Below are positions 4,118 through 64,000 of a stretch of 64,000 nt of DNA, in pieces. The stretch's first letter is position 1. The number at the start of each line of letters is the position of its first letter. The stretch comes from Spirochaetota bacterium (lineage in GTDB: Bacteria; Spirochaetota; Spirochaetia; Treponematales; UBA12059), in assembly GCA_022703505.1 (NCBI GenBank), contig JAKLDN010000001.1:469389-533388 (forward strand), written 5' to 3'. Position numbers and translations under genes: made by a program. The notes under the pieces were generated by a model. It saw only the letters and a list, made by a program, of their open reading frames with translations. It had not been told where the DNA came from and did no database searches.

Positions 4118-5581
4118 CTAGGCTTTCTGCAGGGCCCGGACGGGGGTGATCCGGAGGGCGACGGACACGGGGTAGAGGCAGGACAGCACCCCCACCATCG
4201 CCATGGCCGCCAGGGCGCCGGCCACCGCGGCCGCCGATACGGCGGGCCGGAAGACCTCCCCGCCGAACAGGGTCGCCAGGATCTCGTTGGAGCTGGAGAT
4301 GCCCGCCCGGCCCAGGATCCCCACCGCGACGCAGCCCGCCAGGACGCCCAGGGCCCCGAAGGCCAGGGAGACCATGAGGGTCTCCGTCAGGATCATCCGG
4401 CGGACGAAGGCGCGCCCGGCCCCGATGGCCCGCATCGTCCCGATCTCGGGGATGCGTTCGGTGATCGATATGACCAGGGTATTCATTATGATGATGGCGG
4501 CCACGGCCACGACGATGAGGACGATTCCGTTGAAGGCCAGCCGGAGGTACCGGGAGAGGTCCGCCTGGACCCCCGCCCCCCAGCTCCAGTCGGAGACGAC
4601 GAGCCCGGAGGTCCCGGCCCCGATCGCCGCGCCGAGCTCCTCCGCGGCGCGTCCCGCGTCCCGGCCGTCCGCGAGCCGGATGAGCAGGAAGTTCCAGGCG
4701 TCCGAGTCCACGGCCGAGTACCGGGCCCGGGCGCTCGTGTCCCCGAGGATGGAATCGAAGTCCGCCGGACCGGCCGAGGTCTCGGCCGCGGCGATGGAGA
4801 ACCCCGAGAAGAGTGCATCCTCGTCCGTGACGGCCGGGGCGGCCACCGCGGCATCGGCCCCCGTCTCCGAGGACTCCGAAGACGCCGCTTCCCTCCGCGC
4901 CAGGGTCAGGCCCGCCAGGGAGCGCACGGTCCCGGGATCCGTGAGGGAGATCCGGTCCAAGAGGTTATTCCCCCGGCGGAACCGGAACACCCCGGCCAGG
5001 GTTACTTCCCGGATCTTCGTGCCGCCCTCCCCCATGCCGGTAACCAGGAGGCGGTCCCCGACGCGGACCGGGACCTCGGCCTCCGCCTCCGCCTCGCGGC
5101 GGGTGGCCTCGGAGACCAGGATCCAGGCCCCCGGCTCCGCGGGCCAGTCCCCCTCGACCAGCTCGAGGCTCTCCGGGAACATCGCCCGGTACTCCGCGAA
5201 GTCCACCCCCCAGAGCATGGAGAAGCCCGCGGCCGTCTCTCCCGCCGAGAGGGTGGCCATGGAGTTCACCAGGGGAAGGACTGCCGCGACGCCGTCCAGG
5301 GCTTCCGCCCTCTCCCGGACCTCCGGGAACCCCGGCAGTTCCGGGGCGGGGGACCGGGCGGGGCTCACGGTCAGGGAGTAGGCCTCGTCCGATTCGGCCC
5401 GGACGATCAGGTCTCCGGTGAAGCTCTCCACGAAGGTTCGGCGCTGGCCGGCCCGCAGGCTGTCCAGGAAGGAGTTGCCCGCCGTCAGGGTGAAGGCCCC
5501 CAGGGTCACCAGGACCCCCACGATCAGGGTCTTGGCCCGGTGCTCCCTCATGTTCCGGAACGCCAGCCGCAGCAGGATCAT
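4118..5581 (-). CDS. FtsX/MacB-type ABC transporter permease
   Basis: A 487-residue permease with one N-terminal span (residues 15-35), a long periplasmic domain and three C-terminal spans; ITERIPEIGTMRAIGAGRAFVRRMI is the family's cytoplasmic coupling motif. It begins with MILLRLAFRNMREHRAKT, a usual opening for this family. The ATG overlaps the stop codon of the ATPase gene by 4 bases (ATGA), so the two are translationally coupled. With the neighbouring permease and ATPase it makes a LolCDE- or MacB-like extraction/export machine; the substrate (lipoprotein, lipid or drug) cannot be told from sequence. Confidence 0.88.
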   Translation of the reverse strand: MILLRLAFRNMREHRAKTLIVGVLVTLGAFTLTAGNSFLDSLRAGQRRTFVESFTGDLIVRAESDEAYSLTVSPARSPAPELPGFPEVRERAEALDGVAAVLPLVNSMATLSAGETAAGFSMLWGVDFAEYRAMFPESLELVEGDWPAEPGAWILVSEATRREAEAEAEVPVRVGDRLLVTGMGEGGTKIREVTLAGVFRFRRGNNLLDRISLTDPGTVRSLAGLTLARREAASSESSETGADAAVAAPAVTDEDALFSGFSIAAAETSAGPADFDSILGDTSARARYSAVDSDAWNFLLIRLADGRDAGRAAEELGAAIGAGTSGLVVSDWSWGAGVQADLSRYLRLAFNGIVLIVVAVAAIIIMNTLVISITERIPEIGTMRAIGAGRAFVRRMILTETLMVSLAFGALGVLAGCVAVGILGRAGISSSNEILATLFGGEVFRPAVSAAAVAGALAAMAMVGVLSCLYPVSVALRITPVRALQKA

Positions 5582-42649: not shown

Positions 42650-44011
42650 CTACGCCAGGGCCCGGCCGGGCTCCTCGATCATCCCCGCCAGGTCCCGCAG
42701 GAAGGCCGCGCCCACGGCCCCGTCGATCACCCGATGGTCGCAGCCCAGGGTCAGACGCATCCGCTTCCGCACCGCCACGGTCCCGTCCGGCAGGGCTACG
42801 GGCTCGTCCAGGGCCGCACCCACGGCCAGGATGGCCGATCCGGGGGGATTGATGATGGCGGTGAACTCCTCCACCCCGAAGCCTCCCAGGTTGGTGATCG
42901 TGAAGGTGGCCCCGGTGTACTCCTCGGGACTCAGCCCCGAGCCCTTGGCCTTGGCGACCAGGTCCGACATCTCCGCGTCGATCCGAGAGATCCCCTTGGA
43001 CCCGCAGTCCCGGACAACCGGGGTGATGAGCCCGTCCGGCAGGGCCACGGCCAGGCCGATGTCGACCCGGGACCGGTATTCGACGGACGCCTTCCCCGCC
43101 CCCTCGTCCTTCCAGCCCGCGTTCACGGCGGGATGCCCCGCCAGGGCCGCGGCGGCCAGCTTAGCCAACAGGGCGTTGATCGAGGGCTTGCGCCCCTCCG
43201 GATCCGCCAGGGCCTCCCGCAGGGCCAGGAGGCGGCCGGCGTCCACGGTCCGCTTGAGGTAGTAGTGGGGCGCCGAGAAGAAACTCTCCGAGAGGCGCCG
43301 GGCGATGACCGCCCGCTTGCCCGCCACGGGCTCCATCCGGACCGTCTGTTCTCCCGTGGGTCCCCGTGGAACGGCCGACGACGAGGGGCCCGACCCGGGG
43401 CGAGCACCCGCCGGGACAGGACCCGCCCGGCCCGGGGCCGGGCCGCCGGATCCGCCCGCCGCGGCGGCCTCCACGTCCCGCTTGACCACCCGGCCGCCGG
43501 GGCCCGTGCCTCGGAGAGTCCGGATGTCCACCCCCAGCTCCGCGGCCAGGACCCGGGCCAGGGGCGATGAGGGGGCCGGACCCGCGTGCGCGGCGACGGG
43601 CGGCTCTACCGGGCGCGAAAGCCCCGGGCCCGCGGTGCCGGGTACCGGGGAGGCGCTTGCCGCCGAGGCGGCGACGGTCGGAGCCGCGGCGGCCGCCTCG
43701 GTACCCCCCGCTTTCGAGCCCGCTCCGCCCGCCCCCGGGGAGAGCTGGGCCAGCAGGGCGTCCGGGCTCTCCCCGGCCTTGCCGATGATCCCGATCACGT
43801 CCCCTACGGCGGCCCGGCCGCCCTCGGCCAGGAGGACCTTGAGCAGGACCCCGTCCTTGGGGGCCTCGTAGTCCATGGAGGCTTTGTCGGTCTCCACCTC
43901 GCAGAGCACCGAGCCGGCCTTGAAGGCCTGGCCCTCGGACACCTTCCACCGGGCCAGGGTCCCCTCGGTCATGGTCGGGGACAGAGCTATCATGTAGAGT
44001 TTTTCCGCCAT
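42650..44011 (-). CDS. pdhC: Pyruvate dehydrogenase complex E2 (dihydrolipoamide acetyltransferase)
   Basis: A 453-residue core enzyme. One lipoyl domain (residues 1-80, lipoylated Lys in VETDKASMDYEAP), Ala/Pro linker, E1/E3-binding domain (about 148-183: SPLARVLAAELGVDIRTLRGTGPGGRVVKRDVE), second linker and catalytic domain ending in the active site DHRVIDGA. Last gene of the pdhABC operon. No E3 (lipoamide dehydrogenase) gene is in the window. Confidence 0.95.
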   Translation of the reverse strand: MAEKLYMIALSPTMTEGTLARWKVSEGQAFKAGSVLCEVETDKASMDYEAPKDGVLLKVLLAEGGRAAVGDVIGIIGKAGESPDALLAQLSPGAGGAGSKAGGTEAAAAAPTVAASAASASPVPGTAGPGLSRPVEPPVAAHAGPAPSSPLARVLAAELGVDIRTLRGTGPGGRVVKRDVEAAAAGGSGGPAPGRAGPVPAGARPGSGPSSSAVPRGPTGEQTVRMEPVAGKRAVIARRLSESFFSAPHYYLKRTVDAGRLLALREALADPEGRKPSINALLAKLAAAALAGHPAVNAGWKDEGAGKASVEYRSRVDIGLAVALPDGLITPVVRDCGSKGISRIDAEMSDLVAKAKGSGLSPEEYTGATFTITNLGGFGVEEFTAIINPPGSAILAVGAALDEPVALPDGTVAVRKRMRLTLGCDHRVIDGAVGAAFLRDLAGMIEEPGRALA

Positions 44012-48356: not shown

Positions 48357-48774
48357 GAGGAATTATTACTGCCAAACAGTCGCCTTCTAAGCAATAGCAA
48401 ATTGAAGTTTTACTCAATATATGTTATTAATCATATCTAATGAGGAATCCAACCTCAAACAGGTAAAATTAGACATCATAAAGATAGCCATGAGATAAGC
48501 GAACCCAACTATATAATACTTCGTGATATATGCGGAATCTCCTAACCTGAGGTTTGTATTTCCTACTCGAAAACACTTCGAAAACCACTTCCACGGATTG
48601 AATGAGGTTGCTGCTAACATGATACCAATATGGTGAAAACAGAAGGGATTTCATTCACTATGTAACATTTATTTGATTTAGCTATACATTATGTAGGTTC
48701 CTTGCCTTTTTTGCTTGCGTCATTCTCGGATCCGTTCTATACTCGGCACTACCAATTCCCAGGGAGCGCGCCGA
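48357..48774. other. AT-rich region upstream of microcompartment operon
   Basis: 418 bases without a convincing gene. Much lower GC than anywhere else in the window (about 48370-48720). Short frames on the minus strand have no recognisable features. It must hold the promoter of the microcompartment operon; a good AGGGAG ribosome site is at 48760-48765. The composition suggests foreign DNA or a regulatory platform. Confidence 0.65.
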
Positions 48775-50196
48775 ATGATCAATTACGTCACGGGTGAGGA
48801 TATAGAGGCACTGGCCAAGTCGGGGAACAGCCGGCTCGTCCTGGGCCCGAACGACAGGCTTACGGGCATAGCCCGGGAAAACTGCGAGCGCTACGGGATC
48901 AGCATCGTCGCACCGGGATCCGACACTTCGGCGGCTTCGCCTCGAAGCGGCGCCGGATCCCATGCCTCGCCCGCGGCTTCTTTCGTGCCCGAGTCCTTCC
49001 GCCCCTCAAGCGCCCCCGCCCGTGTCCCGAGAGCCGGGTCCGGCGGCTCCGGCCCCGAGGGCTACGACATCGAAGCCTGGAGAGCCGAGTTCCCGATCCT
49101 CAAGGAGGCCGTCCACCTGGCCAACTGCTCCCAGTCCCCCCAATGCGACCGGACCCGGGCCGCCGCGGAGGCCTACCTGGACAGCTGGGGCCACATGGGC
49201 ATGGACTGGGACCGCTGGGTCCAGGAGGTCAACCTGGCCAAGGCGGAGTTCGCGCGGATCATCAACGCGGATCCCGAGGAGGTCGCGGTCGGGACTTCGG
49301 TGTCCGAGATCACCAGCACCATCGCCTCGGCCCTGGACTTCGGGGGCAAGCGGCGGAAGGTGGTCGTCACGGACGTGGAGTTCCCGACGGTGGGCCTGGT
49401 GTGGCTGGCCAACGAGAAGTACGGGGCCAAGGTCCAGTTCATCCCCGCCAAGAACGGGATGATCGAGCTGGACGACTACTCCCGGACGGTGGATAAGGAC
49501 ACCCTGATCACCTCCTTCTGCGACGTCTACTACTACAACGGCTTCAAGCAGGACATCGCCGCGATCACCGAGATGGTCCATGCCCAGGGCTCCCTGGCCT
49601 ACCTGGACGCCTACCAGGGCATCGGCACCCACCCGATCGACGTGAAGGCCCTGGACGTGGACATCCTGAGCTCCGGAAACCTGAAATACCTTTTGGGCAT
49701 CCCCGGTATCGCCTTCGTCTACGTGAAGAAGGAGCTGATCCCCTACATGCGCCCGGCCTTCACGGGCTGGTTCGGCCAGGAAAACCCCTTCGCCTTCGAC
49801 ATCCACCACCTGGACTACGCCAGCGACGCCCGGCGCTTCGACAACGGGACCCCCCCGGTCCTGACCTCCTACATAGCCCGGGCGGGTATGGCGATCATCA
49901 ACGAGATCGGGACCGAGGCCATCCAGGCCTGGACGGACAGGCTTTCCGAACACAGCCTGGAGGGCGGCCGCCGCAGGGGCTTCGATATCGCCAGCCCCCA
50001 GGACGTGCGACGCAAGGCGCCGACCACGGCCTTCCGGGTGGGTTCCGACTCCCACGCCGTGGAGGTGGCCCTCCGGGAACGCGGGATCGTGGCCTCCGCC
50101 CGGGGGGACGTCATCCGCTTCGCCCATCATTTCTTCACGAAACCCGAGGATCTGGATTACGCTCTGGACTGTCTGGCGGAGATCCTGAAGCGCTGA
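48775..50196 (+). CDS. Microcompartment-associated class V aminotransferase with N-terminal targeting-like domain
   Basis: A 473-residue PLP enzyme. Residues 1-50 (YVTGEDIEALAKSG then LGPNDRLTGIARENCERYGISIV) resemble the N-terminal region of EutT and similar add-on domains of microcompartment enzymes; a Ser/Ala/Pro-rich linker (about 51-96) joins it to a class V aminotransferase/CsdA-like domain. The PLP Lys is in SSGNLKYLLGIPG, and LAYLDAYQGIGTHPIDV carries the cofactor Asp. First gene of the shell-protein operon. The N-terminal domain probably directs it into the compartment. Substrate unknown; a ureidoglycine-glyoxylate-type transaminase or a desulfurase/epimerase relative are options. 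Confidence 0.88.
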   Translation: MINYVTGEDIEALAKSGNSRLVLGPNDRLTGIARENCERYGISIVAPGSDTSAASPRSGAGSHASPAASFVPESFRPSSAPARVPRAGSGGSGPEGYDIEAWRAEFPILKEAVHLANCSQSPQCDRTRAAAEAYLDSWGHMGMDWDRWVQEVNLAKAEFARIINADPEEVAVGTSVSEITSTIASALDFGGKRRKVVVTDVEFPTVGLVWLANEKYGAKVQFIPAKNGMIELDDYSRTVDKDTLITSFCDVYYYNGFKQDIAAITEMVHAQGSLAYLDAYQGIGTHPIDVKALDVDILSSGNLKYLLGIPGIAFVYVKKELIPYMRPAFTGWFGQENPFAFDIHHLDYASDARRFDNGTPPVLTSYIARAGMAIINEIGTEAIQAWTDRLSEHSLEGGRRRGFDIASPQDVRRKAPTTAFRVGSDSHAVEVALRERGIVASARGDVIRFAHHFFTKPEDLDYALDCLAEILKR

Positions 50197-50215: not shown

Positions 50216-50515
50216 ATGCTTCTGGCCCAGGTCGTCGGAAAGGCCGACTCGTCGGTGAAATCCCCGGGCATCTCGGGGTCCAAGCTCCTCGTGGTGCGGG
50301 GGCTAGGACCGGCCGGGGAGCCGGAGGGGGGACTGGTCATCGCGGTCGACGCGGTGGGCGCGGGCCCCGGGGACACGGTGGCCGTGGCCCAGGGGGGAGC
50401 GGCCCTCAGGGCGGCGGGACTGGAAAAGATCCCCTGCGACGCCGCGGTGGTGGCCATTTTGGATCATGTGTTCTTGAACGGCAAGGAGATAATTTCGAAC
50501 AGGAGGACGAGTTGA
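50216..50515 (+). CDS. Microcompartment vertex protein, EutN/CcmL (BMC-P) family
   Basis: A 99-residue pentamer-forming shell protein that caps the compartment vertices. MLLAQVVGKADSSVKSPGISGSKLLVVRGL and VIAVDAVGAGPGDTVAVAQGGAALRAAG, then CDAAVVAILDHVFLNGKEI are typical of the family. GGGAGG lies upstream. Its stop overlaps the next start (TGATG). Confidence 0.95.
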   Translation: MLLAQVVGKADSSVKSPGISGSKLLVVRGLGPAGEPEGGLVIAVDAVGAGPGDTVAVAQGGAALRAAGLEKIPCDAAVVAILDHVFLNGKEIISNRRTS

Positions 50516-50793
50516 TGAAAGCGTTGGGAATGATCGAGACCCGCGGCTACGTGGCCGCGATCGAGGCCGTGGATACGATGGTCAAGTCCGCCAGCGTCGA
50601 GGTCCTAGGGACCAAGGAAGTGGGCGGCGGACTCGTCTCCGTGTTCGTCCAGGGCGACGTCGGGGCCGTGAAGGCCGCTGTGGACGCCGCAGCCGCTTCC
50701 GTCAAGAAGCTCGGGGAATTGGTGTCCGTGCACATCATCCCCAAGCCCAGCGACGAGACGGTCGCACTGATCCCCGCGGTCCCGAAGAAATAA
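50515..50793 (+). CDS. Microcompartment hexameric shell protein (BMC-H)
   Basis: A 92-residue single-BMC-domain protein of the PduA/EutM type forming shell facets: ALGMIETRGYVAAIEAVDTMVKSASVEVLGTKEVGGGLVSVFVQGDVGAVKAAVDAA and GELVSVHIIPKP. The stretch KEVGGGLVSV places glycines at the central pore, suggesting a small polar pore. The only BMC-H gene in the window. Confidence 0.97.
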   Translation: MKALGMIETRGYVAAIEAVDTMVKSASVEVLGTKEVGGGLVSVFVQGDVGAVKAAVDAAAASVKKLGELVSVHIIPKPSDETVALIPAVPKK

Positions 50794-51427: not shown

Positions 51428-53035
51428 ATGGCCGTAAGGAAGGGCCCCTTCCTGCCCGACTGGATAGGCGGGGACCACGGCCGGAGGCCCGCCGGCGAAC
51501 CCGTCTCAAGCCCCCGGGGAGCCCGCTTCCTTCCCGACTGGATACCCTCCGGCCGGGCGGAGGACGCGGCCGCTGCCCCGCCGGCGGGCTACCCGCCCCC
51601 GGCGCGGGGCTTCTCACCGGGCTGGGCCCGGGCGCCCGCCCGAGGGCCCCTGGACGAAGAACCCCCCGGCGGGCGTGGACGGCCCCTGGTCGTCAAGGGG
51701 GGACACTGCGTCGTGCCCTACGCGGGCATCGTCACCCAGGACCTCCTCATCGAGGACGGACGCATCAAGGCCATGGGCCGGGACCTGGATACCGCGGACC
51801 GGGATGTGATCCGGGCGGAAGGCAAGTACGTCCTGCCCGGGCTTGTGGATCCCCATGTCCACCTGGGCATCTTCGCCCCTCTGGACGAGGAGATGGCCAC
51901 GGAAACCTCGTCGGCCCTGGTCAACGGGGTGACCACCGTGGGGCTCTACCTGGGGGGCAAGGGCTCCTACGTGCCCGCCCTGGAAAGCCTCATCGATCTG
52001 ATCCAGACGAAATCCCGGGCGGACGCCTTCGTCCACCTCGTGCTGTTCGACCGGGACCAGCTGGCGGAAGTGCCCCTGTACGCGGACCGCTACGGGGTAC
52101 GCTCCTTCAAGGTCTACATGGCCGGCATCCCCGGGCTCATACCCAGCGCGGACGATGGTTTCCTCCTAGACGCAATGGAGACCGTGGCCGCCCTGGGCGA
52201 GGGGGCGGTGCTCAACATCCACGCGGAGAACTCCCGGGTCCTTGAATGGGCGGACGCCCGGGCCCGGATGGAATTCCCCCAGGGCGGCCTGCGCGCCTGG
52301 GAGGCCAGCCACCCGGCCTTCGCGGAGCGGGAGGCGGTCCAGCGAGCTCTTCTGCTCGCGGAGCGCAGCGGGGCCCGATTATATTTTGTCCACGTTTCAG
52401 CCGCGGAAACCGCGGACCTCATCCGCCGGGCCAAGGCGGAGCGTCCCGGCCGCTTCTACGCGGAGACCACATCACCCTACCTCTCCACGGACTTCGACAG
52501 CCCCCAAGGACCCCTGGCCCTGATGAGCCCTCCTATCCGGAGCGCCCAGGACCGGGCCGCTCTCTGGAGGGCCCTGGAGGACGGCACCCTCGACACGATC
52601 GGAACGGACCACACTCCCCTGACCGCGGAACAGAAGACCGGCGGCCGGAGTTTCTGGGAGACCATGCCCGGGTACCCCGCCGTAGGAACCCACCTGCCCC
52701 TGCTCCTAGACGGCGCCCGGAAACACCACATGAGCGTGGAGCGCCTGGTAGAGAAAGTTTCCGCCAATCCCGCCCGGGTCTTCGGAGTCTACCCCCGCAA
52801 GGGGACGATCCTGGCGGGCTCCGACGCGGATCTGGTCATCGTGGACATGGACCGGATGAAGAGGATCAGCGTGGAGGGCGCCCGGTCCCGGTCGGACTTC
52901 GCCCTGCACCAGGGCGAGTTGGGGATCGGCTGGCCCGTGGCGGTGGTCAAGGGCGGACGAGTCCTGTATCCCGAGGATCCCCGGCTGGACCTGGAGAAGT
53001 TTTCCGGTGCCGCCTACCTGCCCCGCCGCCGCTGA
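51428..53035 (+). CDS. Microcompartment-associated cyclic amidohydrolase (hydantoinase/allantoinase family)
   Basis: A 535-residue ring-opening hydrolase. A metal site typical of the superfamily: VDPHVHLG (two His), carboxylated-Lys candidate in SFKVYMAG, HAEN, YFVHVSA, and Asp in IGTDHTPL. Substrates could be hydantoin, dihydropyrimidine or allantoin. The N-terminal 85 residues are an extra, Pro/Gly-rich extension with FLPDWI at 8-13, FLPDWI at 34-39 and FSPGW at 62-66, like repeated encapsulation signals. It starts one base after the BMC-T stop and depends on coupling. Last gene before the terminator. Confidence 0.88.
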   Translation: MAVRKGPFLPDWIGGDHGRRPAGEPVSSPRGARFLPDWIPSGRAEDAAAAPPAGYPPPARGFSPGWARAPARGPLDEEPPGGRGRPLVVKGGHCVVPYAGIVTQDLLIEDGRIKAMGRDLDTADRDVIRAEGKYVLPGLVDPHVHLGIFAPLDEEMATETSSALVNGVTTVGLYLGGKGSYVPALESLIDLIQTKSRADAFVHLVLFDRDQLAEVPLYADRYGVRSFKVYMAGIPGLIPSADDGFLLDAMETVAALGEGAVLNIHAENSRVLEWADARARMEFPQGGLRAWEASHPAFAEREAVQRALLLAERSGARLYFVHVSAAETADLIRRAKAERPGRFYAETTSPYLSTDFDSPQGPLALMSPPIRSAQDRAALWRALEDGTLDTIGTDHTPLTAEQKTGGRSFWETMPGYPAVGTHLPLLLDGARKHHMSVERLVEKVSANPARVFGVYPRKGTILAGSDADLVIVDMDRMKRISVEGARSRSDFALHQGELGIGWPVAVVKGGRVLYPEDPRLDLEKFSGAAYLPRRR

Positions 53036-63040: not shown

Positions 63041-64000
63041 ATGGCACGGACAGGGAATTACATCGACGAACACATCGGGGAGATCCGCAAAGAATTTAAG
63101 CTGCTGGATTACTGGGTTTACCTGAATTCGGGAGACCAGATGATCCCGGGCAACTACTGGCTCAAGGCCGCACGGGAATTCTACGACTTCGTGGAGTTCG
63201 GACGGATGGAGGACATCCCCGTAGCGGACATCGCGACCCACCCGTTCCTGACGACTGCTTGGAACGACTGTATCGAACTAGGTGCCCGATTCATCAACGC
63301 GGACCCGGAAGAGGTCACCAACACCTATCGCCCAGCGATCACCGCTAACCTCCTTTTGTACAATTGCTTCGACTGGAAAGCCGGGGACAATGTGGTGATC
63401 ACGGACCTCAATTACCCTTCCATCGTCTATATCCTGATGGATATCCGGAAACGATACGGAGTCGAACTTCGGGTCGTGAAGAACGTCGGGGGTGAGATAC
63501 TCTTGGAGGACATGGAGAAGGCGATCGACGGCCGCACCCGTATGGTCTGCGTGGACAGGACCGCGGCCTTCGGGGGATTCACCTACGACATGAAGGCGCT
63601 ATGCAAGATCGCCCACGCGAAGGGCGCCCTGGTCTTCGACGACGCCATCCAGGCCTTGGGAGCGATCAAGATCGACGTCAAGGACGACGACGTGGACATC
63701 CTTGTTTCCGGCGCCTACAAGTGGCAGTGCGGACCGGAGGGAGCGGGCCTGCTCTACGTGAAGAAGGATCTCATCCGAAAGCTGGATCCGAGATACCGCG
63801 ACTATCTCTGGGCCGACATCCCGACGGGGATTCCCTTCGCCCTGAAGGACCACGACAACATGCGCCACTGGGATTTCCCGCCGGCGGAAACCGCCAACAA
63901 ATTCTCCCAGGACGTCACGATCGGGCCCGCCCTCTTCGGCTGGAAGGAGACTCTCCGGTTCTACGAGAAGATCGGAATGGAGAACGCGGAGGAGAGGATC
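63041..64000 (+). CDS. Class V aminotransferase family protein, partial (C-terminus outside window)
   Basis: 320 residues are visible. Same family as the enzyme at 48775: LNSGDQMIPGNYW matches LANCSQSPQCDRT in position, ARFINADPEEVTN matches ARIINADPEEVAV, ALVFDDAIQALGAIKIDV holds the cofactor Asp and SGAYKWQCGPEGAGLLYVKKDL the PLP Lys. It begins directly with the catalytic domain and lacks the N-terminal EutT-like domain. GGGAGG lies upstream of the ATG. It probably heads a further operon beyond the edge. Confidence 0.9.
   Translation, partial: MARTGNYIDEHIGEIRKEFKLLDYWVYLNSGDQMIPGNYWLKAAREFYDFVEFGRMEDIPVADIATHPFLTTAWNDCIELGARFINADPEEVTNTYRPAITANLLLYNCFDWKAGDNVVITDLNYPSIVYILMDIRKRYGVELRVVKNVGGEILLEDMEKAIDGRTRMVCVDRTAAFGGFTYDMKALCKIAHAKGALVFDDAIQALGAIKIDVKDDDVDILVSGAYKWQCGPEGAGLLYVKKDLIRKLDPRYRDYLWADIPTGIPFALKDHDNMRHWDFPPAETANKFSQDVTIGPALFGWKETLRFYEKIGMENAEERI

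Follow-up and report, generated by a model that had tools for sequence, protein, structure and literature searches.

A candidate EutQ-type shell-docking domain and a second shared motif on a putative PLP enzyme of a small spirochaete microcompartment locus

What do a short N-terminal domain and a flexible linker contribute to an enzyme encoded beside bacterial microcompartment (BMC) shell genes? The question is raised by a gene in a Spirochaetota bacterium (assembly GCA_022703505.1, contig JAKLDN010000001.1), where we analysed a window of 64,000 nucleotides, positions 469,389 to 533,388. The original prediction had recognised on this gene an EutT-like domain of about 50 residues and a Ser/Ala/Pro-rich linker of about 45, and had proposed a targeting or shell-docking role. 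Both elements proved real, the domain being conserved at 34-55% identity across genomes and the linker counting 49 residues (48-96, with S12 A9 G8 P7), and the proposed role gains support from published EutQ experiments (PMC12487888), from co-occurrence with shell genes and from decay in orthologues without a detected shell.

The protein of 473 residues (48775-50196, plus strand) consists of the domain, the linker and a class-V PLP-dependent core. Its reading frame is open from a TTG at 48715, and the ATG at 48775 is the likely start codon because AGGGAG (48761-48766) lies 8 nt upstream and homologues begin at the same residue. Directly upstream of the operon runs a strikingly AT-rich stretch (48360-48720), the window having 67% GC. 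The score of 130.6 bits for PF00266, against a cut-off of 21.5, places the enzyme in the class-V PLP family, the sole Pfam family above cut-off; K304 (49684-49686) is probably the PLP lysine, and the nearest solved structures to the core are IscS and kynureninase. The word aminotransferase is used for this putative class-V PLP enzyme and its homologues as a label only. The Pfam scan found in it neither the PF06249 cupin of EutQ nor the PF01923 adenosyltransferase of EutT, so that the protein belongs to neither family; it appears to be a new kind of carrier for a EutQ-type docking domain.

Genes for the three types of shell protein follow directly downstream (Table 1), which places the domain within a BMC locus. 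The length of the BMC-T type protein suggests two BMC domains, and the hydantoinase-like amidohydrolase is likely a second cargo. This five-gene order is identical in seven genomes from three lineages. Further neighbours encode a 2-oxoacid:ferredoxin oxidoreductase, a ligase of the ADP-forming acyl-CoA synthetase type, an AsnC regulator, a PhzF-like protein and a protein of the beta-eliminating lyase family. No aldehyde dehydrogenase was present among the proteins scanned, so that the BUF type (shell genes without this enzyme) is a possible assignment, and no gene for EutQ, PduM or another linker protein was seen in this small locus. Two BMC-H genes form another BMC locus elsewhere in the source genome (contig C7, 291491-292695), where the docking-domain profile gave no match.

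Table 1. Features of the microcompartment locus and of the paralogue in the window.
Feature	Position	Strand	Evidence or remark
EutQ H1/H2-type docking domain (putative), aa 1-47 of PLP enzyme	48775..48915	+	profile from 29 non-aminotransferase carriers E = 4.2e-5; hhalign vs EutQ 3e-5
Ser/Ala/Gly/Pro-rich linker, aa 48-96	48916..49062	+	composition; identity only 14-31%
F-x-P-x-x-F motif FVPESF, aa 70-75, in linker	48982..48999	+	F, P, F invariant in three spirochaete homologues
Class-V PLP-dependent catalytic core, aa 97-473	49063..50196	+	PF00266 E = 9e-38
BMC-P pentamer shell protein (EutN/CcmL)	50216..50515	+	PF03319 7e-23
BMC-H hexamer shell protein	50515..50793	+	PF00936 2e-26
BMC-T type shell protein, 206 aa	50806..51426	+	PF00936 1e-7, C-terminal half
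Hydantoinase-like amidohydrolase	51428..53035	+	PF01979 3e-19; L-hydantoinase 1gkr E = 7e-64
Hydantoinase N-terminal extension, aa 1-89	51428..51694	+	2-3 motif copies per shell-linked homologue (spirochaetes, Deltaproteobacteria)
FLPDW copy 1, hydantoinase extension	51449..51463	+	
FLPDW copy 2, hydantoinase extension	51527..51541	+	
FSPGW copy 3, hydantoinase extension	51611..51625	+	
Distant paralogue without domain or linker	63041..64000	+	31% identity; extends past window end

Compared with homologues in other genomes, the domain (MINYVTGEDIEALAKSGNSRLVLGPNDRLTGIARENCERYGISIVAP) is 34-55% identical, the linker 14-31% and the core 64-84%. The resemblance to EutT holds (hhalign E = 0.006 for an alignment of aminotransferase domains only against E. 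coli EutT), but the original prediction had overlooked the stronger match to E. coli EutQ (3e-5), and EutQ rather than EutT seems to be the informative relative. With a profile built solely from the 29 other carriers, a non-circular test over 1293 open reading frames, we retrieved all seven shell-linked aminotransferases (E from 7e-4 to 5e-12); the enzyme studied here was the best open reading frame of the window (4.2e-5), the next reaching 0.5. In the reverse direction, a profile of aminotransferase domains only found EutQ homologues down to 6e-11 among 1948 open reading frames. The match extends over the full length of the EutQ H1/H2-type domain. Searched alone against Pfam and NCBIfam, the domain gave no significant match, and NCBIfam contains it solely as the terminal part of larger families (EutQ, EutT and TIGR02536). 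Comparison with solved structures left no convincing homologue: the overall score of 1.6e-5 for a designed TIM barrel was discarded, as none of its stretches passed alone. In the open-access literature that we searched, we met no previous account of the shared domain, nor of the F-x-P-x-aromatic motif described below.

The functional reading comes from EutQ of S. Typhimurium, whose H1/H2 region (residues 9-41) lies within the homologous domain and interacts with the shell (PMC12487888). When residues 9-41 are deleted, shell and cargo come apart and EutQ remains with the cargo; when residues 62-99 are deleted, EutQ remains with the shell, and residues 1-99 direct the targeting of sfGFP (PMC12487888). 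We therefore regard as probable, with good confidence, that the PLP enzyme carries a built-in shell-docking domain of the EutQ H1/H2 type together with a second docking motif. By homology to EutQ, residues 1-47 would bind the inner face of the shell and, by way of the flexible linker, hold the PLP enzyme there. In so small a locus, with a single shell gene of each type (P, H and T) and two enzymes, the PLP enzyme could serve both as cargo and as connector of shell and core. We infer here the physical binding, the shell partner and the cooperation of the two elements.

The same domain is found at the N-terminus of many EutQ proteins and of EutT, and at the C-terminus of PduL and of TIGR02536-like proteins. 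Two BMC loci (L067:12777-13376 and L070:8864-9457) encode a protein of about 200 residues, likely a dedicated linker protein, that carries the domain twice and has a helical tail at its C-terminus. The domain is also borne by a protein at two further loci (L162, L168) which, from its motif, we take to be BFD-like. PduM, stated to be without known homologues outside Pdu (PMC12108088), may be added to this list. In PduM of E. coli E24377A (L160:29625-30116), the C-terminal end (LLSYADIAQLSSGILVLQRKCCVTALAREAAITRNIQLIRQE) reached a score of 23.1 against the domain by hhalign (E = 3.4e-4; 200 shuffles gave at most 15.2) and only E = 0.15 by plain hmmsearch. In three genomes, the last 42 positions of the PduM model match TIGR02536-like proteins within this domain, and the C-terminal 42 residues of PduM are probably the same docking domain.

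The behaviour of PduM bears on both the favoured reading and a rival. Its loss partly separates the shell from the core, and once the N-terminus of PduB (PduB1-37) is removed, PduM associates with the core and not with the shell (PMC9132943). This second result would suit a module that scaffolds the core, with other cargo or encapsulation peptides and not the shell as its ligands, the enzyme entering within a condensed core, and BMC cores are able to form without shells. However, the core association of PduM is perhaps explained by the N-terminal signal that it also carries (PMC12108088). EutQ binds peptides through H3/H4, its assigned H1/H2 residues are not shifted by the EutC peptide, and the protein without H3/H4 remains with the shell (PMC12487888), while no H3/H4 counterpart is recognised in the aminotransferase. 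We judge core scaffolding rather unlikely, and shell docking remains our preferred reading.

A shell-docking domain should keep company with shells. Of 241 genomes in the window's order, 14 have the domain, and each of these 14 belongs to the 34 genomes that possess BMC genes (p = 8e-14), a test that is partly circular as several profile seeds come from BMC-bearing genomes of that order; with an earlier profile, seeded by aminotransferases and E. coli EutQ/EutT only, BMC genes were likewise present in 8 of 8 carriers there. In the phylum of Aneurinibacillus, the domain occurs in 65 of 299 genomes, 59 of which have BMC genes (out of 87 such genomes in the phylum; p = 1e-33). The phylum to which the Deltaproteobacteria homologue belongs gave 8 full-length matches, a criterion applied after the matches were seen, and all of them fall among the 12 genomes with BMC genes over the cut-off (p = 2e-12). 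Carriers and shell genes lie mostly on the same contigs. On the whole the domain is not widespread in organisms without microcompartments, a point on which the original prediction had staked its proposal: shell-less genomes with a counted match number 0 of 207, 6 of 212 and 0 of 235 in the three sets, respectively. Eight partial matches in shell-less genomes of the last phylum were set aside as chance, since the proteins are very long (presumably NAD-glutamate dehydrogenases) and the matches cover 22-28 of 49 positions, and a match in genome G302 was rejected as short and partial.

Five of the six shell-less exceptions belong to one ACT-domain fusion family. Five shell-less Bacillota genomes (loci L150 to L154) encode this protein of about 155 residues, in which the domain is joined to an ACT domain, with ileS adjacent where the context was read. 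The domain is thus not strictly exclusive to microcompartments, and on the ACT fusion it can serve another purpose. The family favours a second rival, namely a general small module for protein interaction or regulation, of an origin unrelated to compartments and reused by BMC proteins. A weak resemblance points the same way: the second helix is similar to the domain by which 2-oxoacid dehydrogenases bind E3 (best E = 1.5e-4), and the two halves of the docking domain align with a solved structure of the E3-binding type, but with their order swapped. Against the E3-binding family PF02817, the copy in the window has no match and other carriers give partial matches below cut-off (profile positions 2-20 of 36), and we retain this similarity merely as a lead. 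An E2-like acyltransferase of the window (42653-44011, minus strand) is the second-best open reading frame for the docking profile, at a non-significant E = 0.5; with the swapped-order matches, this score hints at a possible circularly permuted relationship. Against a general module stand the close link to shells seen in all three phyla, with carrier and shell genes usually sharing a contig, and the decay in orthologues without shells. Such a module may be true of the deep origin yet compatible with docking; as an account of the domain in this enzyme it is improbable.

Relatives of the enzyme provide natural controls. The original prediction had pointed to the paralogue at 63041, which indeed has neither domain nor linker; at 31% identity it is a weak control, and better ones exist. 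Orthologues in two genomes where no BMC domain was found (G243 and G244) share about 60% identity over the core, but their domain is decayed and the linker is missing, although the absence of a shell rests here on metagenome assemblies. The domain is unrecognised by the profile at locus L090 and reaches E = 0.02 at L091, where the core is intact and the N-terminus degraded. The L090 copy, from a genome without a detected shell, has an in-frame stop near 4152; with this internal stop it may be a pseudogene, or reflect a sequencing error. Another relative (L092, 39% identity over the core), whose genome has BMC genes elsewhere, begins directly at the core. Full-length relatives without the domain (L092, and L091 in part) make it unlikely that PLP catalysis requires it, a requirement that would have told against docking. 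A role of the domain in catalysis or folding, for which we found no supporting point, is extremely improbable given that L092 starts at the core and that the core of L091 has outlived its N-terminus. The operon of the window recurs at a Bacillota locus (L156), where the domain is retained.

The linker contains a further element that the original prediction overlooked, a F-x-P-x-aromatic motif common to the PLP enzyme and the hydantoinase. The form F-x-P-x(1,2)-F occurs in the linkers of 5 of 5 independent shell-linked aminotransferases from spirochaetes and Deltaproteobacteria, where 0.07 occurrences would be expected overall, and F-x-P-x-[WY] in 12 copies in the N-terminal extensions of five independent hydantoinases, against 0.30 in shuffles and a rate of 0.26 per 1000 residues in the rest of the window, the pattern having been formulated after the sequences were seen. 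A hydantoinase relative in shell-less G243 has no such extension, though this relative is perhaps a paralogue, its identity being 39%; in G244 the contig ends at the gene start. In the Bacillota operon, the motif is absent from both enzymes and is therefore lineage-specific. The hydantoinase of that operon (L156:6258-7676), devoid of the repeats, has a short N-terminal segment resembling an amphipathic helix. Judging from these sequence patterns, the motif is most likely a second docking signal common to both cargo enzymes. It would provide a weak additional contact, either of both enzymes with the same shell-protein groove or between the two, and the hydantoinase would be drawn in by such a contact. 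Targeting by this motif only, with a vestigial N-terminal domain, would also fit an element shared by both enzymes far above chance; it is very improbable, since the domain is conserved across three lineages and the linker is not, and since the Bacillota operon retains the domain without the motif. The analysis itself established homology, shell co-occurrence, operon conservation, motif enrichment and loss where no shell is detected.

Known systems resemble this arrangement in part. EutQ of S. Typhimurium, for which shell association has been shown, shares with the aminotransferase a homologous N-terminal domain of about 47 residues followed by a flexible region; in EutQ, the next parts are H3/H4, where encapsulation peptides bind, and a cupin, whereas here a linker with F-x-P-x-x-F leads to a PLP enzyme. 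EutT, a cobalamin adenosyltransferase, has a less similar copy at its N-terminus. In PduL, the TIGR02536 proteins and the two-copy protein, the domain is C-terminal or duplicated and has other partners. PduM, with its probable C-terminal copy, bears a signal at its N-terminus and is not joined to an enzyme. Encapsulation peptides are likewise terminal, joined by flexible linkers and target cargo, but they are amphipathic helices of 15-20 residues, unlike the domain of about 47 residues with its conserved T..DI...G...T..AR....G. The CsoS2 repeats of the alpha-carboxysome are, as here, short motifs repeated in disordered regions (PMC10484944); the F-x-P-x-aromatic motif differs in sitting on enzymes.

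These observations could be extended to a wider proposal, which we advance tentatively and at somewhat less than even chances: that one uncatalogued domain is a general connector of metabolosome shell and core, carried by EutQ, PduM, EutT, PduL, TIGR02536 proteins and the PLP enzyme, and that the F-x-P-x-aromatic repeat is a new cargo-loading signal co-recruiting two enzymes into a minimal two-enzyme compartment. The attachment of cargo to the shell is known for only few compartments, and EutQ and PduM have so far been described as unrelated proteins, each implicated in linking the shell to the core. If true, the proposal would offer a tag of about 47 residues for engineering. In Gram-positive Eut compartments, EutQ is without its first helices (PMC12487888), and the shared domain may bear on their assembly since other proteins can carry it. 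Should EutQ and PduM share the module, and enzymes bear it directly, this would provide a testable loading rule for many uncharacterised compartments.
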